A stretch of DNA of 64,000 nt from Arenicola marina. Lineage: Eukaryota > Annelida > Polychaeta > Arenicolidae. The translations under genes were made by a program, and so were the position numbers. The DNA lies in contig OZ025260.1 of assembly GCA_964019135.1 (NCBI GenBank), positions 12,828,254 to 12,892,253 on the forward strand, read 5' to 3'. Every line of letters begins with the position of its first letter. The stretch's first letter is position 1. The notes under the pieces are model-generated. The model had not been told where the DNA came from. It did no database searches and saw only the letters and a list, made by a program, of their open reading frames with translations. Below, piece after piece: positions 15,503-56,666 of the stretch.

Positions 15503-18500
15503 TTAATTGCCACATTGTCTGTCTATGATGGCCATCTGACCGAAGCCAGTGTCGTCGAGCGGACAGCTGAGCTCCAAGTTCGTGCCTCCGAACACGTAGT
15601 GGACGGTCACCAGCTCGTTGGCTCCCCCGGTCAAGGTCAAGGTCATCTCGTTGGCGTCTATGACCATGTTTGTGAAGCGCGACTGTGACATAGGAACCCA
15701 CTTGCTTAATTCGCCCTGAAGGATCAGCTCTGTGTTCCTAAACAGATGAAAGCCGGTGCATACTACACTGAAGAATTTACGTAAATGTGCATATATATAT
15801 TGCGTGAAATAAAATAACGATGGATAAAAAAGGGGTCTGGAAGGGGTAAATGGCGACCTGCGAGACAGGCATATTTAAAAAATCGACATCCGACAGTGAT
15901 CCTCATATTCCGACGCTGAGGATGTGAAAAAGCGACATCGACACAGACTTTTTAAACAACGACACTGAGTTTAGCCAAAAAGCAACGTGGAACGTCGCGA
16001 AATAATGACATTCGACACCGAGAATTGAGCAAAATCGACACTGGATACTGCCCCCCCACCCACCCACCCCTGAGACCCTTATAAAAGAAACTACCAGGAG
16101 ACACTCTCGCACAGAAATAAAGTATGCTTACCCTAAAATTGAGGAGAAGCATATAACAATTAGTGCTGTAATAGGAAATCGAGGAATTTAAGCGGTACTA
16201 GAGCAGATATTAGGATGAAAAATACGATTTAATAAATGACTTAATAAACTCATTTAGAATGATATTGTATTAAAACAACGTCAATCGAAACCTAGCAATA
16301 TTAAGATTGGGCTAATCCTCCGAAAAAGAAGCTCGTGAAATACTTACTAAATTTTGTTGAGTGAAACAACTAACCTGACTGTGAAGACCGGACTGGTATA
16401 ATAGACGCAGAAATCAGATTTCGGACAGTCGTCGAATGTTATTGGATTATTGTCGTTGAAGTCGAAGACCACGGTGTGGTTATCCCGCGAGAAAGCTCGG
16501 CTTGTTGGAAACTTGAGAGAAAAGAATGTTATATTAACAACACAAGTTAAACGAGTGTTTTCAACCTCTGGCTTGAGATTTGTATGTTACGTACGTGACT
16601 ACACCTGGCGTCACAATCTTTCTGGCGTGATCACTGGCAGCGGTCAATACAATAGACACCGTACACCTATCTTCTTTCAGGTTCTCTTTACGTCAGCTTT
16701 TGATGCGCGACGACCAAGAGGCAGTTACAACCTAGTTTCCCATTGGACAGATCTTTCATTGCAATGGAAGCCAAAAACTAGACCCGTGATTGCGTTTCTT
16801 TTTCTCTAACAACTCCTAATTACCTATACCGATCGAGTTATGAATCACCATCTTGTTAGGTGAGTATGATATTGACCTTTGACCTACATAGCCCAATATC
16901 GACGTTGGCCTCACTTCATCGATCACCTTATGTCACAACCAATGCAGAATATTTCATATTTACATCAGATCCGAAGTGGGCATCCGTGGGGCCGATGGTG
17001 ATGGACTCGCCATCGGTGATGTCTGCTCCCAGCATGATTCCGAACATGGAGCCTGCGATACTGGTGTATGTGGACCACATCTCCCCAGTGAAGCCAGTGA
17101 ACGCTCTCTGCCAACACAAAAGTGTGTAAGACAATACATGTACGTACGAAAATCGTGGATGACTTTTACTTATCGATTTGTCTGCTTCTGCCATTATCTG
17201 TGGAATAGTGGAATCATTGCAGCACAGGTTGAGTTTCCGACCAAGACAATCATATTCGAGGTGATTATTTACATGTGAATTTGGTAACGAAAACCCATTG
17301 GAATAAACCAAAAACCAAACCTCTTCCATCCTTCATTATACTTGACAAAGAAATCTTTCAATTTTGGTTTCACATGAAGTTCAGCTCGTTGTCCAATTAT
17401 ATTCATTGGCCCAATTCAACACATGTGTGTTTAATGGTGGCCGCATAAAACATTAATCTATCTAATAATTCGTGATTGAATAAGGCCAACGACTGAATCG
17501 AAAGTGATCAAGTAATAACATTACGAACATATGTAAAATGTAATTTTTTAAGTGCACATTTCAAAATGTGCTAACTCACCTGCATGATTTGCTTGTCAAC
17601 TGCCATCGCAGGTTTAGCCGGCTTAAGAATCAAGCCTGAGGTTGAACATGACCTGTCAGTGTCAACGAAACGCTATTACCAGCATCATCACCATTAATTA
17701 CCACCATCATTATCCTCCTTAGATTATCAACGTCATCGTCATCATCATTATTATCATTAATATAGTGATGGTCAACATGTGAAATCGTGTGCACCAGAGT
17801 CATTTAAGGTTGCTATGAATTGACAACACATGGATGATTATGATAAAAATCTTAATGATGAATAGATAATATTTCAAAAAATGCGTGCTTTCCAATTAAA
17901 CCATTACGCCATGTCATTTGTACATCAGCGATCAGTTGTACCACTATTATATGTACACAACTGCCGACAGCACTGAGGTATATGAAAGGACAATCTTTGA
18001 TGTACAGTGTATAATGTTTGACATATGCACGCACTCCCTGCATTCGAATCACTCCGATTTGACTCCATTATATCTATGTTGTCGCTTACTTCCTCATTTT
18101 CACACTCGCTCTCCAGGGCGGCGGTGCGCAAATCGATGGTAAAAATGCGTCGCGCATTCTACAAATTAGCGCAGGGGACCCAATATAAACCTAATATGCA
18201 ACACTCTCAATTATAACTTTTTCAGAGTGGTAAAAGTTGTATTTTCCTGTATTAATTAATTAACACAGAGCTCGTTATTTTTATGTTTCATTCTTGAAAA
18301 TTTGAATGTAAGAAATTGCCCCGGCCGACAGCAGGGGTACAAGCGGAGCTTGCGTAGCGCCACCGGGTGGGGAGCTTGAGATGTACGTTGCGCCACCATT
18401 GTACTTGCCTCATAAGGAGTTCGATGTCGGTGTATCCTATCTTATCGCCCGGCCCTACGGGCCCTGTGCTCAGGGTGGCTACCACACTCTCCAGCTGCGG

Positions 18501-21500
18501 ATACAGCTCGTCCCGGACTGCAGCACGATGTGGGATGAATATTATATATTGCCCAATACTTTTCGGGTATAAATGCGCACCTATGTACCTATGACCCCCC
18601 CCCCCCTCCCTTGGTAGATAATTGAGGGTAACAGGGGTCCAGGCACAGGGGTCACATGTTGGTTCTTGCTGATGCTCTTCGCAAGGGCAATATGAAGATA
18701 TATGAGGGGGGGGGGGGGGTGTCTGAACCCGTCCCCCTTTTTGAGGTAGGTTGATCCGTGGTCAATGGTATATGTATGCCAGCTAAAGCCCCGTCCAGAA
18801 GACAGCTTGTTCCGAAGTCTGTCTCATATTTTTTTTTTCAATATCTGAGTCCGTTTCTAACGTGTGACAGAATGACGTACGCTGATTGGCCAGAAATTGT
18901 ATGAACTATAGGCTTGACCTAGCGAATGGAGCATGTTCTCTTCCACCCGATCTATCGGTCATAAAGTAGCCTGTGGGTTTGTCCGGGGGCCTGTCCAGGC
19001 GGTAAGGTAGACAGTGGCATATAGACAAACTTGTGTCCATAGATAAACTCTGGACGTGGCTTTAGATGTGGATGCCACACCCACCTTTTTGTACTGGACC
19101 TCCATATTATTTTGGTCCACCCCCCGCCCCCCTCCCCCCTGTCGTAAGAATTTCACACTCAAAGAGAATCATCCCTCGCAAATTCTCAATTTCCTGGATC
19201 CCCGCCAACTTGTGACTCCCACATGATTGCTTGCTGGCTTTGCCCCTGAACATGGTGGCCGTTTAGCATGGGGCTGACAGGCATATTTAGGCTCCATGCG
19301 GAGCAATTTTTTCTCAATATATATGGTGGTGGACATAACTATGTTGCTTATATTTAGGTGGCTAGCCAAACTATATTATTTATATTTGGGTGGCTAGCGA
19401 AACAATCTTAATCGTGATTGGGTGTTTCCATTCATGTTCGATAAGTATATCGACTCCATCTATATCAAGAGCGCCCGGCTGGACGCTTGTGGTGCAGAAC
19501 GTATCTTTATGAGATACAACACATGATATCTACCGTAAGGAGCGCCCGGCTGGACGCTTGTGGTCCAGAACGTATCTTTATGAGATGCAGCACATAATAT
19601 CTACCGTAAGGAGCGCCCGGCTAGACGCTTGTGGTCCAGAACGTATCTTTATGAGATGCAACACATAATATCTACCGTAAAGAGCGCCCGGCTAGACGCT
19701 TGTGGTCCAGAACGTATCTTTATGAGATGCAACACATAATATCTACCGTAAAGAGCGCCCGGCTGGACGCTTGTGGTGCAGAACGTATCTTTATGAGATA
19801 CAACACATGATATCTACCGTAAGGAGCGCCCGGCTGGACGCTTGTGGTGCAGAACGTATCTTTATGAGATACAACACATAATATCTACCGTAAAGAGCGC
19901 CCGGCTGGACGCTTGTGGTCCAGAACGTATCTTTATGAGATACAACACATAATATCTACCGTAAAGAGCGCTCGGCTGGACGCTTGTGGTCCAGAACGTA
20001 TCTTTATGAGATACAACACATAATATCTACCGTAAAGAGCCCCCGGCTGGACGCTTGTGGTCCAGAACGTATCTTTATGAGATACAACACATAATATCTA
20101 CCGTAAAGAGCGCCCGGCTGGACGCTTGTGGTCCAGAACGTATCTTTATGAGATGCAACACATAATATCTTCCGTAAAGAGCGCCCGGCTGGACGCTTGT
20201 GGTCCAGAACGTATCTTTAAGAGATACAACACATGATATCTACCGTAAAGAGCGCCCGGCTGGACGCTTGTGGTCCAGAACGTATCTTTATGAGATACAA
20301 CACATAATATCTACCGTAAAGAGCGCCCGGCTGGACGCTTGTGGTCCAGAACGTATCTTTATGAGATACAACACATAATATCTACCGTAAAGAGCGCCCG
20401 GCTGGACGCTTGCGGTGCAGAACGTATCTTTATGAGATGCAACACATAATATCTACCGTAAGGAGCGCCCGGCTGGACGCTTGTGGTCCAGAACGTATCT
20501 TTATGAGATACAAAACATGATATCTATCGTAAAGAGCGCCCGGCTGGACGCTTGTGGTCCAGAACTTATCTTTATGAGATACAACACATGATATCTACCG
20601 TAAGGAGCGCCCGGCTGGACGCTTGTGGTCCAGAACGTATCTTTAAATGGTGCGACGCCGAGCGCGTCGGCAAACATCGAGGTGATTCCAATCCTCCATT
20701 GATAACCACTCGGCTGGTAATCTTCGCTGACTCTACCCTAGAATAAAAAACATTGTCCACGAAAATAGTGTATATTTAAAACTGTGCATGCACTGTTGTG
20801 TATTCTTAGCAATATGTATCGTGCCTGCCTGATGTCACCACTTAGTGTTTGTACTTGATTTCTAGGGAGGTATGTTTCAATTAAAGGTGGGGCGGGGGTA
20901 GCCGGGGTGGGGCACATGGATACCAACTTAATTAAATATATAATAGTTTATAAATAATATTGAATTATGATGAAGATTTCGTCAAATTATGATTAAATTA
21001 TAATTAAATTATTACAAATTAAATAAGAGGGTATAGTTAATTATTACATCAATGACTTTTGAAATCTTTTGGGATCTTTTGGAAAGTTCACCGCATAAAT
21101 TGGATAAATATAACCCTGCGATCACATAATACGTGGACCTGGCTCCTGGTCCAGACTTTGAACGCGCAAATCATGGCACGACATGTTAACGATTAGCCCC
21201 CAGGTATTAACAAATCGTCACAGAAACTTGTAAATCGTGCGATTACCTGGCCAATGAGAGCTGACGATATATATATATATATATATATATAAATGTTCAG
21301 CTTACTTGTGTAACTCTGTTTATTTCGAGGCTCGCCAGAGCTATGCGGGACGGGGCCATGCAGTATTGGAGGGTGAGTCCCGCCCTCTCCGCCCCGAGCG
21401 CCATCTGGTGCAGCCAATCGCGCCCCAAGGTCAGGCTGGTCACCGTGGCCTCCATGAAGTTAAACTGTCTGTTCAGCCAGTCCTGTTCGTACGTGATCAG

Positions 21501-24500
21501 CCCCCAGGCGGCCGTAGGGAGCAGCAAATCGTCCCAGAAACGCTGTTAAGGAGATAATGAAAGTTGTTGGCTTACATTAATAGGGGGGGGGGGGGGGGGG
21601 GGGGCAAGGGGTATTTCCGTTCCTCGGGAATGGGTTTTTCATTTCACCGTGAACTGAGAAAATGAGTGAAATGGGGTATTAGCCGACTGGCGTGATGAGG
21701 GATGTTCATTAATCGTGAACTGGGAATTTTAATATTAAAGGGAACCGCTAGCCTGGCCTCTAACGCTGCTTTACCGATTCATATAAGACCCAATTGTCTA
21801 TCTTCCAAATTACAGAATATTTCGTCCTATCTATAGTTCACAATCACATTTAGAAGTGTCCACCGGGCACCCAGGCGGCAGCCCTTTTTGGAGGTGTGTC
21901 CGCGCTTGACCAATCAGGAGACGATACTTTATTTCTGCCGTTTTATATTGACTTATATTTCTATATCTATAGTTATATATGGAGAGCCCCGAGTCATTGT
22001 TATGCGTTTCCAAAGTTCCTTAACAATATGGCACTTTCACGGCTGTAATTCAAAACTCTGTCTGTGCCTCTGTTTGAGTCGCCATTAATTGATTGATGCC
22101 CCTATATGTAAATTGTACCTGTTCTGTAGGGAGGGAAGACCTGGGCTCGTCTTCCACAATAAAGCTGTAATTGCCTCCGTTTTGTGAGGCATACACTGTA
22201 TCCGCTGACCTGTGAGACGGAATGAATATACAGACGGAAACACCACACACGGAGCATATTGTATCAACCTATATTATTGTTCAGAAATAAATTACAGCTT
22301 CACACACGCATCACGTCGACATGAAGGCTTGATTGACATCACGCTACTGTGTAGCTTCAATGCCATGCTAATTCCATCCTTGACGTTTGTGCACATACGA
22401 CTACGTTTGTACTTTAATGCTTTGCGACGGAAGTAATTTGAAAGCATGTGAAGCTAAAGCATTAACTAAACTGCCTCTTGATACTGATATTATCATGCAC
22501 ACATTTTTGTTGCGTGCTGCAAATCCACGTTTTAGGATTGAGATATTCATGACATATACTCCGTATTTAATATGGGAATATTAAACACGTGAATTTATTA
22601 GCACGAGTGCAGAATAACGATGTGTTTCTTTGAATATTATCAGAAGTTACGTGTACATCATAAATTGAACTTACCACCATCGATTATGGGCAACTAAGGG
22701 CCACCCTGTCTGCTCGTGCAGGTAGCTATGGTGACACACACATGGTCTATTAGAGCAGCGCCACACAATTAGTGACACATGTTACCGCATAATAACCAAA
22801 AAATAATGGCATTATGAAGAGCTAACGTTCACTGATTGAAAATTAAATTTAATGTAACAAAATGAATCGAGTATCACGAATTAATAAAAAAATTATACAA
22901 ATAATATGTATATGTGGTTTTAGCTACGTTTCGCCACAAGCTAATTAACCTTAATTAACCCCAGCAGTAAATTAGGGAGAGAAAAATGAACAAAATGTGT
23001 TTGTCACCTGATTCCGTTTGGAAAGACATCTGGTCTGGCGACCCACTCCTTCACCCCGTTACCATCACCCTTGTAGTACCACCACGAGTCATACTGCACG
23101 TACCTGCATGGCCAAGGTCACTCCAAGGTTAAATGTCAAGTTATATATATAGCGTTGTACATCATGATGAGTCTGATCCATGATTACAAACTGGGAATGA
23201 AGGTCCCGGGTTCACTAGGTAGAGTGAAGGGAGTCTGATACCTTTTCCGATCTCCGCGATCGGCATCCAGGAATTCTTGGAGATTCGCGATCAGCTGTTG
23301 GCAATTTTTAGGGTTCATTATCCGTACAATTCTTGGTTCAACGCGAAGACCATTTGCCTATTTACTGCGATCCATTAAAGCAGTCCGTACATTCCTCGAT
23401 ATTCGCGATATCACCATTACGGCGCCTCCCCTAGAGTTCGCTGTCCAAAAGGCGTACAACCGCAGTAATCTTGAAGGTATTAGACATGTGGCGGGAGGGG
23501 GGGAGGGGGGGGGGGCGATTGTACATTAAATTCTAAGGTATAATGAGCGTATCGAATTTTAACGTTTAATGTCATTTATTAATTAGCACATTGATATTTA
23601 ACTCTTAAATTTATGTGCACATTTAATTTCAACGTTTGACATTAGATGTTATTGCGTGAAGCCTGCGGTACGTACTTGTAAGGTATGCTGTTGGTATCTG
23701 CGTATTCCTTGACAGCAAGAATTGTGTCTTCGTAATTCATGCCTCCTTCCGTGTTATAGTAATAATAAGCACCTGAAGGGTGTATCATGGAATTTAATAT
23801 TCAGTTACATTATTTGTAATTTCTACTGTAGTATGTACAGAGCTTTACAATGGATATTACCACCATAACGAATTACTGTTACGGTTCGAACCATCCTAAG
23901 ATATGGCGACGACCGAACAAATGGCACCACTACATATTTAACTCTAACCAATTATATAAAAAAAACATTCAAGCCGTATGTGTAACACGTAACAAAATAA
24001 GAAATTACTAATGATAATGTTAATATGACATATTAATACCGTTATCGGTCCAGAATCCGATGTAGTTGTTGACCAGGTCGGTGTCTCTCAGCGCCGTGTC
24101 TTTGTTGGTATTTGCTCTCATCATGGTACCCCAGTCAGCCATGGCCTGAAGCCAAGATAGGTTACGATAACGTTATAGGGCTATAAAGTCTCGTTCGCAT
24201 AGACTTCCGGTTTACTCATTTTGGGGACAAACAAACGAAGCACGTGTTCGGAACGAGTTTAGAATATCTGCGCACACTGGTATCCTGACTATCTGTGACG
24301 TTGGCGTGACCTGTATGTTACGCAAAGAGTGAGACTGGGAACCAGACTACCTGCGCAAAAGCCAGGCACCGAGGGGTGGGTCCATTGCGGAAGGCCTAGC
24401 GATATAATAAACAATATTTAAGAAATATAGCGTCAGAAAACGGATAGACGACATATTTTTTGTTCGTCTGCGCTATCACAATGACGAATATTTGTTACGA

Positions 24501-27361
24501 CGGGACAATACGACTGAGAAACTAACGTTTTTTTGCATTTAGTACGAACACGAGGCATTATGACGTCACACGGACTCTCCCCAAGGCAACGTTGGCGCAA
24601 CGCTTCAAACAGAAAACTTACAAAAATGAAGAAACTTGGTCTTTTCGTGATCCAAAAGTGATACGAAAACATCCGATTGGTCTTATTTTATCTTTACAAT
24701 GTAGTTTAATGACGCATCCGTGTGCTGTTACTCCATCACTGCACATTTTGACAGCGGAATGGTTAAGTCGATCACTTGTCCTCGCCATTTTTGTTACCGC
24801 GGAGGCACGCGAAACTCTGTGACGTCATTCACTTTTTGAGGAACTTGCGAAAGCCCGGGCGCAGGGCTAAATTTAGAACGTTATTTATAGCTTTCGAGTG
24901 TTTTTAAGACGGATTTTTCCTTGTATATTCCCAAAGTTCTGCGCTTCATCGCCTCCAAATATTTTAACGTATATCTCCCATAGCCATGTGTAGTGAAATG
25001 GTACTCATAGTCTTTAGAATAAACCTGGAAAGAAATTGACTTATAGCTGCCTATACTTCAACATGGAGCACGTGTGTTTGTTTGTCCCCAAAACTGAAGT
25101 CTCGCGGCCCGATCGCGAGAACTGTATAGCCCTATTGGGTTATCCCCTATCCAGCAGCCATGGGCGCATTTCTTTGGTAACCCGGGTGTATTCCTGTGGT
25201 GGACCGATTACGCACATTACGCATCGGTCCACCGCCCGACACTTCTTTCACCCGGGCATGGGTGCGCGCACATCCATTCGGTATGCCGATGTGTCCCGTT
25301 CAAAACAGCACGGGACATTCGGGATAAGATGGCGGCTGATTGAAAGGTGATGAGAGTAGGTTGGTTCCGGTGCCCCCTACGTGCACCGGATGTGAACGGT
25401 GTGTGCATTTCATTGGAATATGGATATCCCTGTCGGCACACCTGGAAATTCCCTGTCACGTGTTGCGGGTCCCGGGCGGGATACCGAACCTGGCCCAAAG
25501 AAATGCGCCCCATGAAAGCTGTGAAGTTTCTAGTCTGTCCAAGCGACAGGCTGGCTACAGTAATTAGGGCGCAATATATTCAGCCTATGTAGGTCATATT
25601 ACGACAATTGGAAGGGTCAAGGTAGAGAGGGGCCTTGTCTCTGGGAGTAACTTTCTGACAATTTGCAAAGAAACACATCTTTATTCTGCACAAGTGGGAT
25701 TCGATCCCCACACCGGCCGCTTGGCATAGCATAACGGCTATAGAACACACTCGACAAGTGGGATTCCATCCCGGCACCGGCCGCTTGGCATAGCATAGCG
25801 GCTATAGAGCACACTCGACAAGTGGGATTCGATCCCGGCACCGGCCGCTTGGCATAGCATAGCGGCTATAGAGCACACTCGACAAGTGGGATTCGATCCC
25901 CGAACCGGCCACTTGGCATAGCATAGCGGCTATAGAGCACACTCGACAAGTGGGATTCGATCCCCGCACCGGCCGCTTGGCATAGCATATCGGCTATACA
26001 GCACACTCGACAAGTGGGATTCGATCCCCGCACCGGCCGCTTGGCATAGCATAGCGGCTATAGAGCACACTCGACAAGTGGGATTCGATCCCCGCACCGG
26101 CCGCTTGGCATAGCATAACGGCTATAGAGCACACTCGACAAGTGGGATTCGATCCCCGCACCGGCCGCTTGGCATAGCATAGCGGCTATAGAGCACACTC
26201 GACAATATCCGAATATACCTACAGGGGAGAGGCCCAGTGTCTTCCGATTATTGCCGTTAAAATACCGATTGCCAGAAGCATATATTTCAGAATCTGTAAA
26301 TTGATAGAAATATATGATACGCCGTATACATGGTGTGAACCTGCAGTATTGTCCCACTCATTCTTTTTTCATTAGAAGAGACGCCGTATCTATACATATT
26401 CATCGGCGTTGAACCCATTTAAACCATCATCAATGTTGAAAAATCATTCCGGCTGACCAGTCTGCAAACACAAAACGATTAGGCCATTTATCCTTCGTCG
26501 TCTTGGGAGACTTCTCGGTCCGTTGTTTGCACAAAAGCAGGAAAAGACATCATGAATTTTCTCCTAAACTCACTGACCTTGTTAATACCCCCGTCCGTGT
26601 AGTACATGACGGTGGAATAGACGAAGCCCTGAGGCACTTCGGCCGCCCGCCCCATCAGGCCCCAGCTGACCGTCATGCCCCCGTCACGTGACGTGTACTG
26701 GGCCGACCCAGCCATCGGGTTCATCATCGATGACGTCAGAACTGTGCTGCCATCCGGCGTGAAGAGAGCGAGGGGGCCGTGGTCGAGGCCGTCCTTGATA
26801 GAGGTCACGTCCTCCGAGCTCCATCTGGCGGTCAAAAAACAAACAAACTAACTTTTCATTTAATATTTTTTTCAGAAGCGATTTTGGTCAACAAAATAAA
26901 ACAAAGCAAAAAAAATAATAATACTATAACTAATAGGCCTACATTTAACACTGACATTTAAGAAGTCATTCAACACTGGCCTATCCAATGGATGTGAGGC
27001 TGGGGGAGGTGGGTGTCATGACGTAACCACCTCACTTTACACCTTACCCCCCATTGATGTAAACATCTTAGGGTCCCATTATGAGAGAGGAGCCGAGGGT
27101 TAGAAAAGGAGAGCTCGGTATTGTCAGGGACACTGCTAGACCTCCACACTGATGGCCACTGACACGTTGAGCCGCTTGCTACGGTCTCCCCACATGTAGC
27201 CGCCGTAGGCCAGGTAACCCAGCTCCTCGGTCCGGTCGGCCTCTGTCGCGTTCTCCACGTAGAAGCTGGGGAAGGCGGACGACACCCACTCCCTGTCACC
27301 AACGCTGGAGTTAAACACGTAACTCAGGTAGGTCTGAAACCGAGAACACAACAAACCCGCT

Positions 27362-27400
<39 letters not shown>

Positions 27401-27506
27401 GGTATTATTCAACGACCCTGCTCCATATATATATATGTGATTGTATTATTCAACGACCCTGCTCCATATATATATATGTGATGGTATTATTCAACGACCC
27501 TGCTCC

Positions 27507-43900: not shown

Positions 43901-46900
43901 CAGGCAAAGGAAGCAACATTACAGGTAGAAGGAACCAATACCGTGCTCAGCGCGGCGACCACGGCCTGCAGGGCAGGGAATGGCTCGCTCAGGTCTGGAT
44001 CAGGCAAAGGAAGCAACATTACAGGTAGAAGGAACCAATACCGTGCTCAGCGTGGTGACCACGGCCTGCAGGACAGGGGATGGCTCGCTCAGGTCTGGAT
44101 CAGGCAAAGGAAGCAACATTACAGGTAGAAGGAACCAATACCGTGCTCAGCGTGGCGACCACGGCCTGCAGGGCAGGGAATGGCTCGCTCAGGTCTGGAT
44201 CAGGCAAAGGAAGCAACATTTCAGGCAGAAGGAACCAATACCGTGCTCAGCGTGGCGACCACGGCCTGCAGGGCAGGGAATGGCTCGCTCAGGTCTGGAT
44301 CAGGCAAAGGAAGCAACATTACAGGTAGAAGGATCCAATACCGTGCTCAGCGTGGCGACCACGGCCTGCAGGGCAGGGAATGGCTCGCTCAGGTCTGGAT
44401 CAGGCAAAGGAAGCAACATTACAGGTAGAAGGAACCAATACCGTGCTCAGCGTGGTGACCACGGCCTGCAGGACAGGGAATGGCTCGCTCAGGTCTGGAT
44501 CAGGCAAAGGAAGCAACATTACAGGTAGAAGGAACCAATACCGTGCTCAGCGTGGTGACCACGGCCTGCAGGACAGGGGATGGCTCGCTCAGGTCTGGAT
44601 CAGGCAAAGGAAGCAACATTACAGGTAGAAGGAACCAATACCGTGCTCAGCGTGGCGACCACGGCCTGCAGGGCAGGGAATGGCTCGCTCAGGTCTGGAT
44701 CAGGCAAAGGAAGCAACATTTCAGGCAGAAGGAACCAATACCGTGCTCAGCGTGGCGACCACGGCCTGCAGGGCAGGGAATGGCTCGCTCAGGTCTGGAT
44801 CAGGCAAAGGAAGCAACATTACAGGTAGAAGGAACCAATACCGTGCTCAGCGTGGCGACCACGGCCTGCAGGGCAGGGAATGGCTCGCTCAGGTCTGGAT
44901 CAGGCAAAGGAAGCAACATTTCAGGCAGAAGGAACCAATACCGTGCTCAGCGTGGCGACGACGGCCTGCAGGGCAGGGAATGGCTCGCTCAGGTCTGGAT
45001 CAGGCAAAGGAAGCAACATTACAGGTAGAAGGAACCAATACCGTGCTCAGCGTGGCGACCACGGCCTGCAGGGCAGGGAATGGCTCGCTCAGGTCTGGAT
45101 CAGGCAAAGGAAGCAACATTACAGGTAGAAGGAACCAATACCGTGCTCAGCGTGGCGACCACGGCCTGCAGGGCAGGGAATGGGTCGCTCAGGTCTGGAT
45201 CAGGCAAAGGAAGCAACATTACAGGTAGAAGGAACCAATACTGTGCTCAGCGTGGCGACCACGGCCTGCAGGGCAGGGAATGGCTCGCTCAGGTCTGAAT
45301 CAGGCAAAGGAAGCAACATTACAGGTAGAAGGAACCAATACCGTGCTCAGCGCGGCGACCACGGCCTGCAGGGCAGGGAATGGCTCGCTCAGGTCTGGAT
45401 CAGGCAAAGGAAGCAACATTACAGGTAGAAGGAACCAATACCGTGCTCAGCGTGGTGACCACGGCCTGCAGGACAGGGGATGGCTCGCTCAGGTCTGGAT
45501 CAGGCAAAGGAAGCAACATTACAGGTAGAAGGAACCAATACCGTGCTCAGCGTGGCGACCACGGCCTGCAGGGCAGGGAATGGCTCGCTCAGGTCTGGAT
45601 CAGACAAAGGAAGCAACATTACAGGTAGAAAGAACCAATACCGTGCTCAGCGTGGTGACCACGGCCTGCAGGACAGGGGATGGCTCGCTCAGGTCTGGAT
45701 CAGGCAAAGGAAGCAACATTACAGGTAGAAGGAACCAATACTGTGCTCAGCGTGGCGACCACGGTCTGCAGGGAAGGGAATGGCTCGCTCAGGTCTGGAT
45801 CAGGCAAAGGAAGCAACATTACAGGTAGAAGGAACCAATACCGTGCTCAGCGCGGCGACCACGGCCTGCAGAGCAGGGAATGGCTCGCTCAGGTCTGGAT
45901 CAGGCAAAGGAAGCAACATTACAGGTAGAAGGAACCAATACCGTGCTCAGCGTGGCGACCACGGCCTGCAGGGCAGGGAATGGCTCGCTCAGGTCTGGAT
46001 CAGGCAAAGGAAGCAACATTACAGGTAGAAGGAACCAATACCGTGCTCAGCGTGGCGACGACGGCCTGCAGGGCAGGGAATGGCTCGCTCAGGTCTGGAT
46101 CAGGCAAAGGAAGCAACATTACAGGTAGAAGGAACAAATACCGTGCTCAGCGTGGCGACCACGGCCTGCAGGGCAGGGAATGGCTCGCTCAGGTCTGGAT
46201 CAGGCAAAGGAAGCAACATTTCAGGCAGAAGGAACCAATACCGTGCTCAGCGTGGCGACCACGGCCTGCAGGGCAGGGAATGGCTCGCTCAGGTCTGGAT
46301 CAGGCAAAGGAAGCAACATTACAGGTAGAAGGAACCAATACCATGCTCAGCGTGGCGACCACGGCCTGCAGGGCAGGGAATGGGTCGCTCAGGTCTGGAT
46401 CAGGCAAAGGAAGCAACATTACGGGTAGAAGGAACCAATACCGTGCTCAGCGTGGCGCCCACGGCCTGCAGGGCAGGGAATGGCTCGCTCAGGTCCGGAT
46501 CAGGCAAAGGAAGCAACATTACAGGTAGAAGGAACCAATACCGTGCTCAGCGTGGCGACCACGGCCTGCAGGGCAGGGAATGGCTCGCTCAGGTCTGGAT
46601 CAGGCAAAGGAAGCAACATTACAGGTAGAAGGAACCAATACCGTGCTCAGCGTGGCGACCACGGCCTGCAGGGCAGGGAATGGCTCGCTCAGGTTTGGAT
46701 CAGGCAAAGGAAGCAACATTACAGGTAGAAGAACCAATACCGTGCTCAGCGTGGCGACCACGGCCTGCAGGACAGGGGATGGCTCGCTCAGGTCTGGATC
46801 AGGCAAAGGAAGCAACATTACAGGTAGAAGGAACCAATACCGTGCTCAGCGTGGCGACCACGGCCTGCAGGGCAGGGAATGGGTCGCTCAGGTCTGGATC

Positions 46901-49900
46901 AGGCAAAGGAAGCAACATTTCAGGCAGAAGGAACCAATGCCGTGCTCAGCGTGGCGACCACGGCCTGCAGGGCAGGGAATGGCTCGCTCAGGTCTGGATC
47001 AGGCAAAGGAAGCAACATTACAGGTAGAAGGAACCAATACCGTGCTCAGCGTGGCGACCACGGCCTGCAGGGCAGGGAATGGCTCGCTCAGGTCTGGATC
47101 AGGCAAAGGAAGCAACATTTCAGGCAGAAGGAACCAATACCGTGCTCAGCGTGGCGACCACGGCCTGCAGGGCAGGGAATGGCTCGCTCAGGTCTGGATC
47201 AGGCAAAGGAAGCAACATTACAGGTAGAAGGAACCAATACCGTGCTCAGCGTGGTGACCACGGCCTGCAGGACAGGGGATGGCTCGCTCAGGTCTGGATC
47301 AGGCAAAGGAAGCAACATTACAGGTAGAAGGAACCAATACCGTGCTCAGCGTGGCGACCACGGCCTGCAGGGCAGGGAATGGGTCGCTCAGGTCTGGATC
47401 AGGCAAAGGAAGCAACATTACGGGTAGAAGGAACCAATACCGTGCTCAGCGTGGCGCCCACGGCCTGCAGGGCAGGGAATGGCTCGCTCAGGTCCGGATC
47501 AGGCAAAGGAAGCAACATTACAGGTAGAAGGAACCAATACCGTGCTCAGCGTGGCGACCACGGCCTGCAGGGCAGGGAATGGCTCGCTCAGGTCTGGATC
47601 AGGCAAAGGAAGCAACATTACAGGTAGAAGGATCCAATACCGTGCTCAGCGTGGCGACCACGGCCTGCAGGGCAGGGAATGGCTCGCTCAGGTCTGGATC
47701 AGGCAAAGGAAGCAACATTACAGGTAGAAGGAACCAATACTGTGCTCAGCGTGGCGACCACGGCCTGCAGGGCAGGGAATGGCTCGCTCAGGTCTGGATC
47801 AGGCAAAGGAAGCAACATTTCAGGTAGAAGGAACCAATACCGTGCTCAGCGTGGCGCCCACGGCCTGCAGGGCAGGGAATGGCTCGCTCAGGTCTGGATC
47901 AGGCAAAGGAAGCAACATTACAGGTAGAAGGAACCAATACCGTGCTCAGCGTGGCGACCACGGCCTGCAGGGCAGGGAATGGCTCGCTCAGGTCTGGATC
48001 AGGCAAAGGAAGCAACATTTCAGGCAGAAGGAACCAATACCGTGCTCAGCGTGGCGACCACGGCCTGCAGGGCAGGGAATGGCTCGCTCAGGTCTGGATC
48101 AGGCAAAGGAAGCAACATTACAGGTAGAAGGAACCAATACCGTGCTCAGCGTGGCGACCACGGCCTGCAGGGCAGGGAATGGCTCGCTCAGGTCTGGATC
48201 AGGCAAAGGAAGCAACATTTCAGGCAGAAGGAACCAATACCGTGCTCAGCGTGGCGACCACGGCCTGCAGGGCAGGGAATGGCTCGCTCAGGTCTGGATC
48301 ACGCAAAGGAAGCAACATTACGGGTAGAAGGAACCAATACCGTGCTCAGCGTGGCGACCACGGCCTGCAGGGCAGGGAATGGGTCGCTCAGGTCTGGATC
48401 AGGCAAAGGAAGCAAAATTACGGGTAGAAGGAACCAATACCGTGCTCAGCGTGGCGCCCACGGCCTGCAGGGCAGGGAATGGCTCGCTCAGGTCTGGATC
48501 AGGCAAAGGAAGCAACATTACAGGTAGAAGGAACCAATGCCAGGCTCAACAAGACACCAAGATAACTCAAAATTAGCGAAAAGGGTAAACATTAGGTAAC
48601 TACAATTATACTTTAACATCAAAATAATCCCTTTGCATTAAAATTTCAGAAAAACTCTTAAGCTATTAACTAGATGTAATGTCTACTACTTTCAAACCTA
48701 AGTTCTTTTTCGGTTGAACTATATTACGTTTCAGCAATCAGCTTTCAATACCAATTTTACAGTAGAATAGAATACTGGAATGGGCTCACAGTGACGAAAT
48801 GCTGGCGGCATATGTGCAAGTATGAAGCTAAGAAGAACCCTGTTCAGACGACTCACTGTAGACGTTGCCAGGTTGTATGGAAGTTGTCCAGAAGTTGTCC
48901 TTAAACGGCGCCAATCCCAAGGCATGGGCCAACATGGAGGACACTCCAATTTTCCATTGATCATTTCCGGGTTGGTAGTCATTGCTGACTCGTATCTATG
49001 AATAATAATAGGTTTATTTCATCTAAAAAAATAGTACATTACATATTCATGTTCAAACTGAGCAGAAGCGGTGCTTATATGCTCGTACAGGAAAAAGAAA
49101 AAGAACAAAAAGAAGACCCCCCCCCCCCTAAAAAAAAATCACTCAAATCAAACCAATCAATCAGTTTTACCAATGTTGACTTTGTCATTAAACCCGTTGG
49201 CGACTTGATATCGGTCTGAAAGAGTTTGCGTGCCTGCACTTGTTCCTGTTAATGACCTCCTTAATGGTGTTCTAGGTTTTAAATAAATTATTTTGATTCT
49301 GCTTAATTAAGTTCTGGTAATACAGTTTCACCGCATGTCTGATAGTAATAAGCAGCATGTTTTCATACTTCTTACATTCTTGCGTATAAGTATCATTCTT
49401 TTGCATTTCAGATAAAGTTTAACAACCTGTTACGAAAGGCTTCCTTATTTTAATTTGGATATTTTCTTTTACTACAAACTTTAATATATCTGGTCAAGTG
49501 TTCAGCTTATGTCGACAATCAGTAATGACACTGTTGATGAGGGATTTTTTCGATGAGGCCTTCTTTTTAAAGAAAATGACTTGCGACAAATGCATTCTAT
49601 ATCAAAAGAGTTTTACTCCCACATTATATTGCGCCCCCCAACCACTTAAACTATTTTATTAAACTTAAATTATTTTTTAATGACAGATATCGGCTTAATG
49701 GTGTTTGCCATTGACACATAATCCGACGCCAATTGGCTGGATCAGGTAGAGACCTGCGTGACGACCGGGATCTCGAGGCTGGTCAGCGCGTGGCGACATG
49801 GCGCCATACAGTACTGGATGGTGATCCCGCTCTTCCAGGCTCCGCCCCCCATCTGTCTCAGCCATTCCCTGCCCAGCGTTACGTTGCTAACAGTAACGGA

Positions 49901-52900
49901 CATCGTGTCGAATTCAGTGTTCAGCCAGTCCTAGAAGAAAGAACGCCAATTAAAAAGAGTTTGGACAACGCGGCATTGGGAATTGCTGCATTTAAAGGGA
50001 ACCGCCAGCCTGGCCTCTAACACTGCCATACCGATTCGTATAATACCCAATTGTCTATCCTCCAAATTACAGAATTTTTGGTTCTGTCTGTAGCTCCCAA
50101 TACAATTTAGAAGTGACCGCCAGGCACAATTTTGCCGCCTACCCAGGCGGCAGCCCTTTTTGGAGGCGTGTCCGCTATTGACCAATCAGGAGGCGATACT
50201 CTAATTTATTCAAACCGGAAATTGCGCCTATTGTGTGAGCAAAACAAGAGCGTGTGATAATCGCTAATATAAATAGCTGCGATTCTAACTCCAATCATGG
50301 CATTGTTGCAGAGTCAATCGTCGCAAGACGTATATCAATTTGTTTGGATGGTACGTTTCCATAAAACACTAATATCTTGCGCTACTGCGAGGCTTGGAAC
50401 TGCCGATATTCATCTGTGAATCGCGGCCCTGATAGCTCTCTCCGCGAGTTATAACGTAAGACGGCGCCATATGAATAGTCACAATATGCGTCACTGCTCC
50501 CGGCAAAATGGCGCTCTGCTTGACATTCCTGGGGGCGGGTTGCCTTAATTTTTTTCTTCTTACCAGTCGGTCGAAACGAAGCGTTAACACTCGCCAATTT
50601 AATTTTAAGATGTAAACTTTCGGTGCACATCGCGATTAAATTAGGTTGGACACCCGCTTTAACGTAATGTATATACAGAAACAAAATTAAATGATTGTTA
50701 CCTTCAGCCGATTTGGCGCACTACGTTAGGCCAAGGAATCTCGGGGGAAAACGAATGATTTAGATGATATATGCCCCAGATGATATTATATCGCCAAGAC
50801 CGGCACGCTTCGAATCTCGAGTGTTCTACCGGGGCCGGCGCGATAGCTCAGTGGGCTAGAGCGCTCGCATTCGGTGCTCTGGTCATCTGAGAGGCTACCG
50901 GCGCGTGGATCGATGGTTTGAGCACTGCTGTGGCCATGTCTGTGTGGTCGCAGGATAAAGATCCCATGTCTTTCTTCGTGAAGAGTAGGGGGTTACCCCC
51001 GGAGACATGGCTCCACACTCCCTTCCTTCTCCCATTGACGCGATATGACCAAAAGTGGTTAAAGCGTCCTGAATAACCAACCAACCAACCAACCAATCGA
51101 GTGTTCACCAATCGAGCGGACACGGAGGTTCCCCCTATCGAGAAGCAGACTCAGTTTCCCAGCGTTAATGCCGTCTCGCTTGGAGACAGCACACGAATGA
51201 CTGCGACACTGAATACCATCAAATATGCAACCAATTAACACAAGATTAAGACAAATAACACTAATCGGGGTTAATAATAAGCAATAATCCAATTGATGGG
51301 TAGGACACGGTAAATAAATGAGCCAATATCGGGGACAAAAATATGGTTGGTTGGTTGGTTATTCAGGACGCTTTAACCACTTTTGGTCATATCGCGTCAA
51401 TGGGAGAAGGAAGGGAGAGTGGAGCCATGTCCCCGGGGGTAACCCCGTGCTCTTTACGAAGAAAGACATGGGATCTTTATCCTGCGACCACACAGACATG
51501 GCAACAGCAGGGCTCGAACCACCGACCCACGTGCCGTTAGGCTCTCAGGTGACCAGAGCACTGAATGCGAGCGCTCTAGCCCACTGAGCTGTCGCGCCGG
51601 CCCCACAAAATATGAAACAGCTTACTGGTGACGTACCTGTTCGTAAGTGATGAGGCCCCATTTCTTGGACTCCCTCATCAAGTCGTTCCAGAAGGACTGT
51701 AAAGTAAAATACAAAAATAATCTAAAACTTACATGAACATTAGGTGCATCCCCATGCTTACAGATACATCATGACAATTTGACTTGTAATGAAATGTGAG
51801 AGAGAAAACGTTCGGTGGTCTTCAAAAATGCGTAGAAAGGCCAGGAGTTTGGATCTTTCATCGGTATATACAAGAAAGCCGGCTGTTATCTGTAAGCAGG
51901 CGAGTGCTTTAAATATGTCTGGGGCGTTTATTGTAGACTTAATCCGAATAGGAAAGATGTCATTGTGACCACCTTAAGTTGTATGACAATTCGCTATGAG
52001 GTCATCATTTATATGTGCATACGATGCTGGAAACCTCAGCAAACAATATCATATGACATTTAAAGAAAAAGCAAAATTAGTAGTAGCAGAAAGATTGTTC
52101 AAAGCCCTATACGCACCTGATCCACGGGGATAGATTTGTTGTTCATAGGTTCGACAATAAAGTCGTATTTGCCCCCGTTCTGCTTTGCATAGACGGTCTT
52201 GTCAGACCTGAAGCATGGCAGATGGTTGGTTGGATGTATATTCAGGACGCTTTAACCACTTTTTGGTCACATCGCGTAAAGGAGAGAAGGAATGGAAAAT
52301 GGAGCCATGTCCCCGAGGGTCCATATGAGTAAATATGTATAACCTAATTATATCAACCACTACTTATAATATAGTTAGACTACATGTATAAAAGAAGCTA
52401 AAAAATCAGAAATACTATCTGGAGTTTAACTCCCTAAACAGTGCATTTACCAATGTTACATTACAGATACTTACACCCGTTACATCGCATATTGATAACT
52501 GGTGAAGTGATATCTTAAGTCACTGGTGAACCTCAATCCACATTAAACTTGGAGAGAATTGTATTATATGTTCAGGTGATGCGGAATGATATAGTAATAG
52601 TTTGTTATTACCAGAAACGATTGTGCGCTACAACAGGCCATCCGGTCTTGTCCCAAAGATACCTGAGAACAAAATCAGTTCATTTATTTTAAGAAATGCA
52701 ACGTTACTGTTTAAAGCCACTTGTTAACATGAAGGCTTAGCCCAATATCGGAGCGGACGCCGTTGCACCTCTGAGGACACACGCCTCAGATACAGGTGGC
52801 CGAGTGTGAACTCATGACCTGTTGGTCTGCAGCTCACCCCGCTTACCAACTGAGCAGGGGATGTTGCCGTACTTATTTCACGTATTCATAGGAAGAACTC

Positions 52901-55900
52901 TGGCATTCACTTATATGTTACTCATAAGGGGCGAAGCATACAATAGTATGCAGCGGTGTGAGTGAGAGGGCGTTCACATTATGGTAAATACAGTCTGTGG
53001 TGTATACGTCCTAGTGCAGACACAGCACTCGCGTCAACATGCAGACAAATATAGAATATGAAATCAATGAGACGTGTGACGGCGATTTGCCAAGCTCTTT
53101 ACGCTACTTACTTGAGTCCTTGAGGGAAGACCCGCATCATTGAAACCCACTCCGTCACTCCCTTCATGGGTCCCTTGGGGTACCACCAGGAGTCGTACTG
53201 AACATATCTACCACGAAAAGGAGCGTAAAACGTACGTCATTGACGTGTCGTACGTACCACAAGTCATTGAACATCCCCGGCAAAACCAATAATACAATAC
53301 TGCGCATTGCAAGATAATTCATCTCATTACCGTCCATACAGGACCAAGAAGCAGACATATAATGTGACACGAAAACTAACATAATATATATTATCCCTAA
53401 AAAACTGATCACCTTAGTGATGTTGACGGAGACCTTTAGAAGAGACATAATTAAAATGACTGATAATTTCATTTGGAGTGGTTTTTTCTCTCATGGGTAA
53501 GTGGCGCTACTTACTGGTAAGGAATACTCTCTTGGCCAGCATAAGCTTTGACCCCCACTATCGTATCCTGGTAATTTTTGCCATCTTCTGTCTTATAATA
53601 GTAATAGGCACCTGCAACGTTGCAAATAAGATGCATTTGTATGTAAGAAACCTTTCTACACCCCGACCGATTCAGCTTGGCAATATAGAGTAAATACAGT
53701 AAGAGCTATATAGCACCAATAAATGCAGTATACATGCAATAAACGGTGAAGCAAATACAGTATACACGCAATATACAGTAAAGCAAATACCGTATACATG
53801 CAATATACGATAAAGCAAATACAGTATACACGCAATATATGGTAAAGCAAATACAGTATACATGCAATTGATAGCAAATACAGTCTACAATAGTAAAATG
53901 TTTATGATATTGCAGATGACTAAGTTTTATGGCATTCAGACATGCAAATACACTAAATTAGGGACATGATCATATCTTATCATTAGCCCCAACGGATAGT
54001 TTAAAGTTTACAACAGAAACAAGCAATGGGTGAGCCACTAATTAACACCAAGAGACATACGTACAACAGTTACATTGTAATCCTACCATTATCAGTCCAG
54101 TACCCAAGATAATTGTTGGCAAAGTCAGACTTGGTGTAGCTGGTGTCCTTGCCGTAATAGTGCCTCATGGTCCTACCCCACTCTTCCAAAGCCTGGTCAG
54201 TGATGCAATAGTAACCTGATCAGACCTTTATGTATATCATGACCATAGGAGGAGATCGATCAAATGGAAGAGGCATCAAAAAGATGCAGGTGCGTGGTCG
54301 TACGTAATTGGAACGTTCAGCGACATATAACAGAGATATATCTAAGAAATTGGACTACGCTACGCAGTTAGAACATGTATTATATACTGAGTATGAGTCT
54401 CATCAGTCTCAATGCATAAAGTTCACCGGCCACACTGTAGCTGCAGTTGGCCAACTGAATTGATACTCAGAGCCAAATCGATGTCCATGCAAATATCCAG
54501 GAGGAAAATAATTATTTCCACATTTTGTGTAGATTATAGTTGTCAACACTGCACTAATGATTACACTATTATTTTACAAAAGCAATGCCTAACCTTATTC
54601 GTCCCATCTCCAGAATAAAATATCGATGTCCACATGCTGAATCCGGAAGGGATATGATCCACCAGGCCTAGCACACCCCAGGACGCCACCATCTGCCCAT
54701 CCTGCTTAGCGTACTGGGCGGATGACGCCATGAAGTTTGTGAAGGGTGAAATGATCACAGTGTTCTGAGCATCACTATTGAACAACACCAGTGGCCCACT
54801 GTCCAAGCCGGAGACTATCTTGTCCACAGAGTTGCTGCTCCATCTGATGTTAATTATTTCTTTTCAGAGAAATATGTGATGCATAAAAGTACATGAAAAA
54901 TGTCGCTGCACTCTAAGAACAGAAGGCGTTATAAAACTGGGTGCAGAGTGCAAGATAGTAATCTTCTTGTATCACCAAACATCATAAAAGTAAGCTTAAC
55001 ATGTATATATAATCTCAATCTGCGGCGGTTTCTGTAAAACAAGAAATAAAAAATATAACTTTTATGTCACTTCAAATGAAAATAATAAAGGCGACATACT
55101 TTAGCATGACCAATGAAGATAAATGATAATCCTAACATTATAATGAAATTATCAAAATGATCATAAAGAGTCATTGATAAAAATCTATTGTTTTTAAGAA
55201 ATGGATTTTAATTGGGAAGAAATTGGCAACTTACAAGCCCATAGCTTTCCTAGTATCTCCATTCATAATGCCACCAAATGCCAAATAGCCCAGTTCTTCA
55301 TTTCGGTTGATACTTTTTGCATCTTCCACAAAGAAACAAGGAAAGCCGGATGACACAGCATCTCTATCTCCAACACTTGTCTTCTCAAACTCACTAGAAA
55401 AATGCTGAAAAAAGAAATCTATGTAATTTCATGAATAATAATTAAATAATGTATCAAGTGGCTGAAAAAAAGTGCTATAAAGTTATAACTTTCACAGATA
55501 TGTTTTCCTTATTACCGGTAGTTGCACGGTCATATTTGGAAATATTATATAGCAATTACTCCAACTTGAGTAGTATGCTTCACAAAGATAAAAAGTTAGA
55601 GATGCTTCAGCTAACTTATTTACATGGACACATTTGGGAATATAACCATTATATTATATTACATAATATCAGTTGATCAGAAAAGGATTGAGGTATGGTA
55701 TTTTCATACCTTGATTAGTTTATCATATGTACTGGTACCTTTCTCAGTTTGAAACATTCACAGTGATTTGAATTAAAGTAAACAGCCCATGACAAAATTA
55801 CATCCTGGATGCAATATTTCATTAATTATTTATATGGGTATATTACCTGACCAAGGAGAACCAACTGCCTTTCTCTGTATCCTCTAAACTTAACAGTCAC

Positions 55901-56666
55901 TCTGTACTGTGTGCCTAGATGGCTGATCTGGTAATGGAAATGTTCCTCTATGAAGTAGCCCAAGGTATCCCATCCTTGCTCCGATGTGACATTGGCAAGC
56001 ACAAGGCCCTCTTGGGAGGAGAACTTTTTGCCGCCAACAGTAAAGAATGTTGGGGCACTCCGTAGCCAGACTTGATCATTGATGTTGACTGTGTAGGAAC
56101 CCTTGTCATTTACAGTTACAGAGAACTGTTGCGCAGATCTTTGAGAACACTCCACAGCACATATCAGGCCTAAAAGAGCTACAAAATAATTTAGAATACA
56201 TAGCATTAATACTGAGAACACTCCACAGCACATATCAGGCCTAAAAGAGCTACAAAAAAATTTAGAATACATAGCATTAATACTTAATTCCATTAATACC
56301 ACACAGCAAGTTAAAGACATTGAATAATGTGGTCGTCATATAACAAGCCAAAATGGTGGTCATAAATTGCTAGTCACATAATGAAGAGGCATTAACATGT
56401 AAAAGTATTCCATGCACAGTGAAAAGACAGTGCAAAAAGAGCCAGCGAGTGATTAAGAGGCCTGTCATAAAGATAGCCACTATAGGTGGAAGTTGGAAGC
56501 AGAGCTCATTAAGTTGTTAAAACTAGTCTATGGTATTATATGTTATGCAGGGAACAGGGAGAACGGCAACAGAATCGAGAGAACGAACAACCAACAGTCT
56601 AAGTCTTAACTGCTGAATTGATAACTTACTCCAGGAAGTCGCCTGCAGCAGTGTCAGAGATGTCAT
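37923..56666 (-). CDS. Paralogue B: secreted protein of unrecognised family, 17 exons, 762 aa
   Basis: Exons in transcript order: 56666-56630, 56178-55847, 55404-55235, 54843-54594, 54192-54087, 53611-53515, 53207-53112, 52662-52612, 52207-52117, 51696-51637, 49930-49754, 48995-48857, 41894-41786, 41012-40940, 39115-38987, 38636-38497, 38154-37923. All are GT-AG, in phase and free of stops. Homologous to paralogue A over its whole length; ten exons have exactly the same length as in A (170, 106, 97, 96, 51, 91, 139, 109 and 73 nt, and the 60+177 nt pair equals A's 237). Signal peptide at about 1-23 (MTSLTLLQATSW then LLGLICAVEC). Shared motifs are WLRSAPTFF, YVQYDSWWY (about 332-340), GWPVVAHNR, YEQ/DWL (428-433), QYCM (about 469-472), PFKD.FWT and STGPVGP. 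Function unknown; secretion is inferred. The 6.96-kb intron 12 is almost entirely a 100-bp array of its own acceptor. Paralogue A lies downstream on the same strand. Confidence 0.85.
38220..38472 (-). mobile_element. tRNA-derived SINE, second family
   Basis: On the minus strand it begins GAGGGTCTCTCTGGTGTAAT, then GCGCATTAGACAACAG and CAGGTTCGAATCTGTGCCC, which fits a tRNA-like head with a B box. The body contains CCTTCCATACTTCATCGTCC and ends near AGGTGGCCTAAAAACAAC. It lies in intron 16 of paralogue B (38155-38496). Confidence 0.65.
39225..39440 (-). mobile_element. tRNA-derived SINE-like element
   Basis: On the minus strand GCGCCTCTCTGGCTCAGTTG (A-box-like) is followed by GGATTCGAGCCCTGCC (B-box-like). 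The neighbouring TTTAGGCCGCTTTTGTGCAC and GGAAGGATGAATGATGAATG recall bodies seen near 38340 and 50715. It lies in intron 14 of paralogue B, about 110 bp from exon 15. Exact ends are unclear. Confidence 0.5.
41845..48545. repeat. 100-bp minisatellite (about 67 copies) built on the 3' splice site of paralogue B exon 13
   Basis: Nearly perfect 100-bp units. One unit near 46731 has lost a single G (99 bp). On the minus strand each unit reads GGTTCCTTCTACCTGTAATG, then a pyrimidine-rich TTGCTTCCTTTGCCTGATCC, then AG and ACCTGAGCGAGCCATTCCCT through CACGCTGAGCACGG. The last 50 or so bases equal the first codons of exon 13 (LSEPFPALQAVVATLST), and the first part is the end of intron 12. Only the lowest-coordinate copy runs on into GGTCCAGTGGGCCCC and the rest of the exon. 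It fills nearly all of intron 12 (41895-48856). The overlapping 82- and 182-codon open frames are artefacts. Confidence 0.95.
49996..50658. mobile_element. 663-bp piggyBac-like non-autonomous element P2, copy 1
   Basis: TTAA on both sides (49992-49995 and 50659-50662). It starts AGGGAACCGCCAGCCTGG and ends GGACACCCGCT. A second full copy of the same 663-bp length, also flanked by TTAA, is at 62677-63339. Inverted repeats at the ends are very short or absent. A minus-strand open frame of about 100 codons is shared by both copies but resembles no transposase that I know. It lies in intron 10 of paralogue B. Confidence 0.8.
50831..51096 (+). mobile_element. Full-length tRNA-derived SINE (plus orientation)
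   Basis: The head GGGCCGGCGCGATAGCTCAG and following GTGGGCTAGAGCGC is a clear tRNA 5' half with A box; a weak B-box-like stretch (GATGGTTTGAGC) follows. The body has CATGTCTGTGTGGTCGCAGG and CCCATTGACGCGATATGACC, and the tail is a CCAA repeat. A target duplication TCGAGTGTTC flanks it (50817-50826 and 51097-51106). It lies in intron 10 of paralogue B. Confidence 0.85.
51345..51604 (-). mobile_element. Full-length tRNA-derived SINE (minus orientation)
   Basis: Reverse-oriented copy of the SINE at 50831-51096: GGTTGGTTGGTT tail first, GCTCGAACC (B-box region) and the tRNA-like head ending CGCGCCGGCCCC. An imperfect target duplication (ACAAAAATAT and ACAAAATAT) flanks it. With its neighbour it forms an inverted pair about 250 bp apart in intron 10 of paralogue B. 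Confidence 0.85.
52222..52325 (-). mobile_element. Truncated SINE copy
   Basis: TTGGTTGGATGTATATTCAGG, GCTTTAACCACTTTTTGGTC and GGAGCCATGTCCCCGAGGGT match the 3' half of the SINE at 51345. The tRNA-like head is absent. It begins 15 bp beyond exon 9 of paralogue B, on the exon's acceptor side. Confidence 0.75.
52715..52865 (-). mobile_element. SINE-like tRNA-related fragment
   Basis: On the minus strand it reads CCCCTGCTCAGTTGGTAAGC (A-box-like), then ACCAACAGGTCATGAGTTC, a weak B-box-like stretch, and a body related to the sequences near 39350. It lies in intron 7 of paralogue B. Family assignment is loose. Confidence 0.45.
53690..53890. repeat. 32-bp minisatellite, about 6 copies
   Basis: Unit CAAATACAGTATACATGCAA plus TATACAGTAAAG, with scattered changes. 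It lies in intron 5 of paralogue B, about 80 bases upstream of the exon 6 acceptor. No exon-derived part is seen in this unit. Confidence 0.85.
56142..56283. repeat. 71-bp tandem duplication including the exon 2 acceptor of paralogue B
   Basis: Two direct copies, 56142-56212 and 56213-56283, differ at about one base (AAATAATT versus AAAAAATT). Each contains, on the minus strand, a T-rich tract, TTGTAG and the first codons CTCTTTTAGGCCTGATATG. Splicing to the copy next to the exon (exon from 56178) gives the intact protein. Splicing to the other (from 56249) brings an in-frame TAA about 45 nt later. Confidence 0.85.

Follow-up and report, generated by a model that had tools for sequence, protein, structure and literature searches.

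Minisatellite-like duplications across an exon-intron border have been described in amphioxus as 'mirages', in Adh3 and the globin genes BflGb6 (acceptor, three or six units depending on the haplotype) and BflGb9 (donor) (PMC3087553), and also in PGBD5 and troponin C (PMC3902484). According to the passages available from both papers splicing is apparently undisturbed, and in those from PMC3087553 the mechanism is called unclear and a route to intron gain is proposed. Arrays of this kind were analysed here in a window of 64,000 nucleotides (the whole stretch of DNA under study, with base 1 at C13:12828254) from an annelid genome, where they lie in two paralogous genes, termed A and B, and also in their relatives and neighbours. 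As in the mirages so described, the duplicated unit spans a real border (14/43 arrays in the examined genes), both 5′ and 3′ borders are hit, a gene or family may carry more than one array, units measure between some tens of bases and about 160, and many copies (here most, not all) keep the GT or AG. Unlike the amphioxus cases in those passages, neighbouring unrelated genes are affected and the same intron is hit in four paralogues, and copy numbers reach 67 here versus 2-7 in the amphioxus mirages with known numbers (Adh3 excepted). Splicing and haplotype variation were looked at in amphioxus, where the length of a mirage differs among haplotypes and also somatically; the present arrays are known from one genome assembly. 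The host group of the mirages as described, which lies outside their structural definition, is the cephalochordates; a tree of the neighbouring gene WDR19 (27 rows, with 48% of columns filled for this genome) places its protein beside those of Capitella and Lamellibrachia (support 95/98), the annelid Owenia standing outside the fork, and the host is therefore taken to be an annelid and not a cephalochordate. The locus thus appears to be a further, exceptionally rich case of mirage-type arrays, in another phylum and with far more copies per array than the mirages with known numbers. An earlier note on this DNA, made from the sequence alone, had supposed that several such arrays in one family lacked precedent; BflGb6 (acceptor) and BflGb9 (donor) provide one (PMC3087553).

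Tandem genomic duplication has also been connected with intron gain, in a potato RdRp case (PMC4974935) and in Rogers' idea as discussed in PMC3087553, and in the passages concerned, as here, the duplication copies splice signals. New intron positions were not found at this locus: the arrayed introns of A and B share position and phase where both are resolved, and when aligned with them, the other paralogues show matching exon ends. Another annelid case, intron 1 of earthworm metallothionein genes, is described as holding large minisatellites, with no splice-border units in the passages available from that paper (PMC12783039). Full-text searches of the open-licence literature, which leaves most subscription papers outside, brought up no report of border arrays outside chordates.

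Models of A and B were made by comparing the open segments of both regions and reading their borders; intron phases match between the two genes, and the spliced proteins are 49% identical. An upstream first exon of A was not found, and the exon numbering, which follows the earlier reader, counts that exon. Arrays and periods were taken from Tandem Repeats Finder, and sequences are written on the coding strand, with a slash at the border. The two genes and their border arrays are as follows.

Gene A: 15503-30316, minus strand, 16 exons (30316-30137, 29769-29639, 27333-27164, 26824-26578, 24145-24040, 23772-23676, 23103-23008, 22725-22675, 22209-22119, 21542-21306, 20737-20599, 18517-18409, 17652-17580, 17107-16964, 16511-16375, 15737-15503).
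Gene B, paralogue of A: 37923-56178, minus strand, 16 exons (56178-55847, 55404-55235, 54843-54594, 54192-54087, 53611-53515, 53207-53112, 52662-52612, 52207-52117, 51696-51637, 49930-49754, 48995-48857, 41894-41786, 41012-40940, 39115-38987, 38636-38497, 38154-37923).
Border array A54: 28134-29654, minus strand, 54 bp x 28, beginning 16 nt inside exon 3 of A; donor TTCACGCAG/GTAAAACGG, copies TTCACACAG/GTAACACGG.
Border array A71: 19467-20645, minus strand, 71 bp x 16.6, beginning 47 nt inside exon 12 of A; donor CTTACG/GTAGATA.
Border array B100: 41841-48538, minus strand, 100 bp x 67, ending 54 nt inside exon 13 of B; acceptor CTGATCCAG/ACCTGAGC.
Border duplication B71: 56142-56284, minus strand, 71 bp x 2, covering the exon 2 acceptor of B, TTTTGTAG/CTCTTTTAGG, and including 37 nt of the exon.

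Nine repeat clusters with a period of at least 20 lie in the two genes, and four of them start within a real exon and cross its border; the earlier note had counted three, and B71 was added. Exon 3 of A, initially missed, directly adjoins the 54-bp array. B100 occupies most of intron 12 of B, its unit consisting of a pyrimidine-rich tract, the acceptor and the start of the exon. Exons 12 and 13 flank a homologous phase-1 intron 12 in both genes, and this intron is hit at opposite ends, with unrelated units of 71 and 100 bp, as had been claimed.

A protein search of the same genome (867 Mb, 762 contigs) returned exons of six family members, namely A, B and one each on contigs C2, C8, C12 and C19, by which the latter are called here. 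Their border arrays are listed below.

C8, exon 10 donor: GAGCAG/GTCAGTG, 75 bp x 5.6.
C19, exon 12 donor: CCCTATG/GTGAGGC, 34 bp x 13.
C2, exon 4 donor: AACAA/GTAAGAG, 99 bp x 2.
C2, exon 13 acceptor: CTTACAG/ACAAGACG (authentic site CTTGCAG), 96 bp x 17.

Five of the six members thus carry border arrays; the sixth, C12, was seen only partly and shows no array in the first ~268 nt of intron 12, the acceptor side lying outside the fetched piece. By plain count, four paralogues have a border array at intron 12 (donor in A and C19, acceptor in B and C2), and the units of these arrays are unrelated. An array in intron 12 of C8 stops, at the end given by the repeat finder, 8 nt short of the acceptor AG; as a near miss it was left uncounted.

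For the neighbourhood, 100 kb on each side of the window were read (C13:12728254-12992253, 264 kb in total; negative coordinates denote bases before window base 1). WDR19 was identified in the flank by exon translation and homology (best relatives Capitella, Owenia and Lingula; no exons were recognised for about residues 97-235), and a transporter of amino acids of the SLC7 type by its likeness to the xCT and LAT chains of PDB. Four of the 12 arrays in WDR19 are border arrays, at three donors (77 bp x 14, 65 bp x 61 and 58 bp x 9) and one acceptor (58 bp x 29), and further WDR19 arrays at -87362, -89915 and -69814 come within 15 nt of a border and were not counted. In the transporter 2 of 12 arrays cross donors (76 bp x 29, and one with a 57-bp unit); an additional two-copy donor duplication of 87 bp is not listed by Tandem Repeats Finder and stands outside the counts. 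The sequence upstream of several of the donor-bearing arrays in the flanks is coding. A cause specific to one gene family, to which the earlier note had confined the phenomenon, was rejected because these two unrelated genes carry border arrays too. The 10 border arrays on 54 recognised introns of four annelid genes make such arrays countable, and countability opens genome-wide questions, such as the status of borders as hotspots, any use of inner copies and a contribution of the arrays to intron gain.

The pooled sample drew 43 arrays from eight genes, some of them fragments (the six family members, whole or in pieces, WDR19 and the transporter), and its 14 border arrays bear out the claim of a repeated birth of minisatellites at splice borders. 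One end of each border array sits within a real exon, and no recognised exon contains the whole of any of the 43 arrays (33 in A, B, WDR19 and the transporter, and 10 in the paralogue pieces). The 14 unit lengths fall evenly into the three classes modulo 3 (5/5/4), nine being no multiple of three. In the 10 donor arrays, scored with a donor matrix entered by hand, the authentic donor equals the copies in eight, is slightly higher in one and lower in one. The even classes and the equal scores are as expected if the inner copies are unused. Such arrays offer as many as 67 copies of a real splice site and thereby challenge splice-site recognition: 63 of the 64 motif-matched acceptor copies of B100 meet a stop before exon 13 ends, only the last staying open through that exon, and 13 of the 14 exact-motif donor copies of A71 lead to stops, only one being open. 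We infer that only the outermost splice site is used.

A minisatellite of the human gene IFI6 (6-16) reportedly provides splice donors to the transcript, as the title of a 1995 article by Turri et al. has it, and it resembles the present arrays in repeating a splice donor. That title implies that the donors are used, whereas here the inner copies look unused and acceptors are also affected; the nine unit lengths that are no multiple of three, together with the stops behind the A71 donors, would speak against a use of inner donors as in IFI6.

The arrays are best explained, with a probability of roughly 65%, as mirage-type minisatellites, that is, as random tandem duplications which happen to straddle a border, are silent and expand. 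In such a minisatellite-rich genome, short tandem duplications (34-100 bp) would arise at many places and expand, probably by unequal exchange. A duplication within an exon would break the protein and be lost. One across a donor would leave the exon and its donor intact at the upstream edge, and one across an acceptor would leave the acceptor and its exon intact at the downstream edge, so that all further copies would count as intron, whatever the unit length. Border-straddling duplications would be silent because at the outermost copy an undamaged exon still adjoins a full splice site. Being tolerated like purely intronic ones, they could grow to dozens of copies. Silent duplication would explain the existence of border arrays, the real exon at one end of each and the disregard of the reading frame.

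The frequency of border arrays was compared with a null in which each array was collapsed to one unit and slid along its gene, placements wholly within exons being excluded. Splice positions of WDR19, the SLC7-type gene and the paralogues were derived from homology and consensus and entered by hand, genes of the right-hand flank, whose annotation was too poor, were left out, and the lower end of the 96-bp array of C2 was placed by eye; for the SLC7-type array with the basic 57-bp unit the null used a period of 171, and the test is conservative for it for that reason. The P values are soft. A random seed of the A and B array lengths crosses a border in 6-25% of placements (about 12% per array across the pooled sample), and the earlier note was therefore too strong in holding that minisatellites placed by chance would seldom take in a splice site. 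Within A and B alone, chance is exceeded weakly (4/9 border arrays versus 1.37 expected, P = 0.033; two other variants of the null gave 1.12-1.26 expected, P = 0.016-0.025).

Several counts weigh against silent random duplication as a full account. In the pooled sample 14/43 arrays cross a border versus 5.09 expected (P = 1.5e-4), an approximately 2.7-fold excess, which rises to 12/23 versus 3.26 (P = 1.1e-5) for arrays of at least five copies and is also seen when A and B are left out (10/34 versus 3.72, P = 0.0016). Placement weighted by the GC (guanine plus cytosine) content at which non-border arrays occur gave 10/33 versus 4.02 (P = 0.0033) in the four genes on C13; the weighting lowers the excess and does not remove it, and GC content as its whole cause was rejected. 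The border arrays at intron 12 in four paralogues count on the same side. Neither the 2.7-fold excess nor the repeated hits on intron 12 are explained by silent duplication alone, and what remains of the excess may reflect a mild bias of birth near borders or a better growth of exon-like seeds. By group, WDR19 and the transporter gave 6/24 versus 1.97 (P = 0.0097), a result biased upwards, its P value being optimistic because both genes were noticed through good donors in their arrays, and the paralogue pieces, free of this bias, gave 4/10 versus 1.76 (P = 0.069).

A birth mechanism tied to splice borders, such as transcription-coupled breaks, R-loops, or U1-bound or RNA-templated repair, would start duplications there preferentially, and the two- to four-fold excess that persists after GC weighting, the hits on intron 12 in A, B, C2 and C19 and the preponderance of donors (10 donors, 4 acceptors; P = 0.18) are consistent with it. 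Against it stand the modest size of that excess, the acceptors that are affected too, and the ends of the units, which keep no fixed anchor at or distance from the splice site in the 14 border arrays: the exon share of the unit varies from 0.08 to 0.76 and is compatible with uniform breakpoints (Kolmogorov-Smirnov P = 0.33, n = 14). The GC skew of the coding strand has no consistent sign (8/14 positive, P = 0.32), and a bias through R-loops was rejected on this ground. Thus the border-tied mechanism proposed in the earlier note keeps the excess over random placement in the sample and loses the anchoring of the unit to the splice site, and we regard it as unlikely. The broader proposition that minisatellites of this lineage arise preferentially at splice borders, where a process coupled to transcription or splicing would start short tandem duplications at about three times the rate of other parts of genes, with some introns such as intron 12 as recurrent targets at both ends, is tentative and a little less doubtful.

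Pure chance, meaning random placement of minisatellites in intron-dense genes with zero excess, would already account for the 5.09 arrays expected among 43, given the share of random seeds that cross a border, and the paralogue group taken alone (P = 0.069) does not contradict it. It is improbable in view of the pooled sample (P = 1.5e-4), the arrays of at least five copies (P = 1.1e-5) and the GC-weighted placement (P = 0.0033), and also of a comparison free of annotation: among 49 units of flanking arrays (at least three copies), five contain a near-perfect donor of at least 10 bits, where length-matched segments outside arrays gave 0.56 (P = 0.001) and dinucleotide-shuffled units gave 1.0 (P = 0.005). 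With the threshold lowered to 8 bits, the excess over the shuffled units disappears (8 versus 5.6, P = 0.18). Once WDR19 and the SLC7-type gene are set aside there is little enrichment, 2 of 29 flanking units reaching 10 bits (P = 0.04 in the comparison with non-array segments and 0.14 in that with shuffled units), a point in favour of chance. Acceptors are not enriched in the flanking arrays by this annotation-free count (2/47 at 9 bits versus 1.4-2.0 expected).

Selection for redundant splice sites, which would keep the arrays for robust or regulated splicing, had also been suggested. In 11 of the 14 border arrays (B71, the 99-bp array of C2 and the 57-bp array of the SLC7-type gene being left out) 564 of 576 splice bases are unmutated and most copies keep GT or AG; six of the 11 have no mutated splice base at all, and the eight arrays in which splice bases vary less than their own array average, taken alone, show two mutated splice bases versus about 10 expected from the other columns, which is readable as protection. 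The total of 12/576 (0.021) is set against 0.029 in the other columns, and in the remaining three arrays splice bases vary more than the average column (A71, 2 mutated in 16 copies; A54, 5 in 28; B100, 3 in 67). Copies homogenise, and the columns are therefore not independent. Protection array by array is neither shown nor excluded, and an overall sign of it is absent. As splice bases lack overall protection and unit lengths ignore the reading frame, without bias to multiples of three, redundancy does not look selected, and the stops behind the inner B100 copies and nearly all A71 copies point the same way; we consider such selection highly improbable.

An assembly artefact, with repeats collapsed or expanded in a draft genome, is conceivable in that array lengths are hard to assemble and the data come from a single assembly, and it would touch only copy numbers; since every array has a unit of its own, with variants particular to single copies, and arrays built alike are found at independent loci on four contigs (C2, C8, C13 and C19, 38-62 Mb in length), it can practically be dismissed.

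The family to which A and B belong comprises proteins of about 750 residues. In a database search 913 proteins pass an E value of 0.001 (120 listed; the named ones among those listed are from invertebrates), and searches with the protein and with exon pieces gave no Pfam model and no PDB match, so the family is uncharacterised. Exon 11 of A (21306-21542) is one piece, whereas B (51637-51696 and 49754-49930), C2, C8 and C19 show separate matches, one ending in YEQ and one beginning with DWL; by this comparison gene A seems to have lost an intron precisely. Exon 13 of A appears to end (18409) in a GC donor, AG/GCAAGT, with GT in B. Two intronic stretches, 21766-21930 in A and 50023-50202 in B, are alike and match each other in translation, and they may be copies of one mobile element.

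The repeats of the two genes that cross no border are given below.

Non-border array, intron of gene A: 25690-26205, minus strand, 64 bp x 8.1, counted as a miss.
Two non-border arrays, intron 3 of gene A: 27368-27831 (41-bp unit) and 27917-28083 (37-bp unit), minus strand, units alike.
Non-border repeat, intron 12 of gene A: 19337-19424, minus strand, 32 bp x 2.3.
Non-border array, intron of gene B: 53721-53868, minus strand, 32 bp x 4.6.

The 64-bp unit at 25690-26205 carries GGGGATCGAATCCC and has no Rfam match at the gathering score; Rfam searches named no RNA anywhere in the window. The stretch GGGGATCGAATCCC resembles the T-arm of a tRNA, and the unit may come from a tRNA-derived short interspersed element.

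Between the two genes, at 32282-34940, three arrays about 1 kb apart share one nearly identical 48-bp unit, as if an array-bearing segment had been tandemly duplicated. Past the 3′ end of gene A, a 5.7-kb array occupies 1831-7581; its unit measures 32 bp (or 68 bp), the 32-bp version amounting to about 168 copies, and no gene was recognised around it. Tandem repeats with a period of at least 20 form 78 clusters and make up 44% of the 264 kb, including one repeat stretch of 21.5 kb at window coordinates 136542-158045. At 61165-61689 a methyltransferase gene of the METTL7/TMT1A type was identified, and a predicted exon beyond the window, at window coordinates 76286-76697, appears to be a relative.

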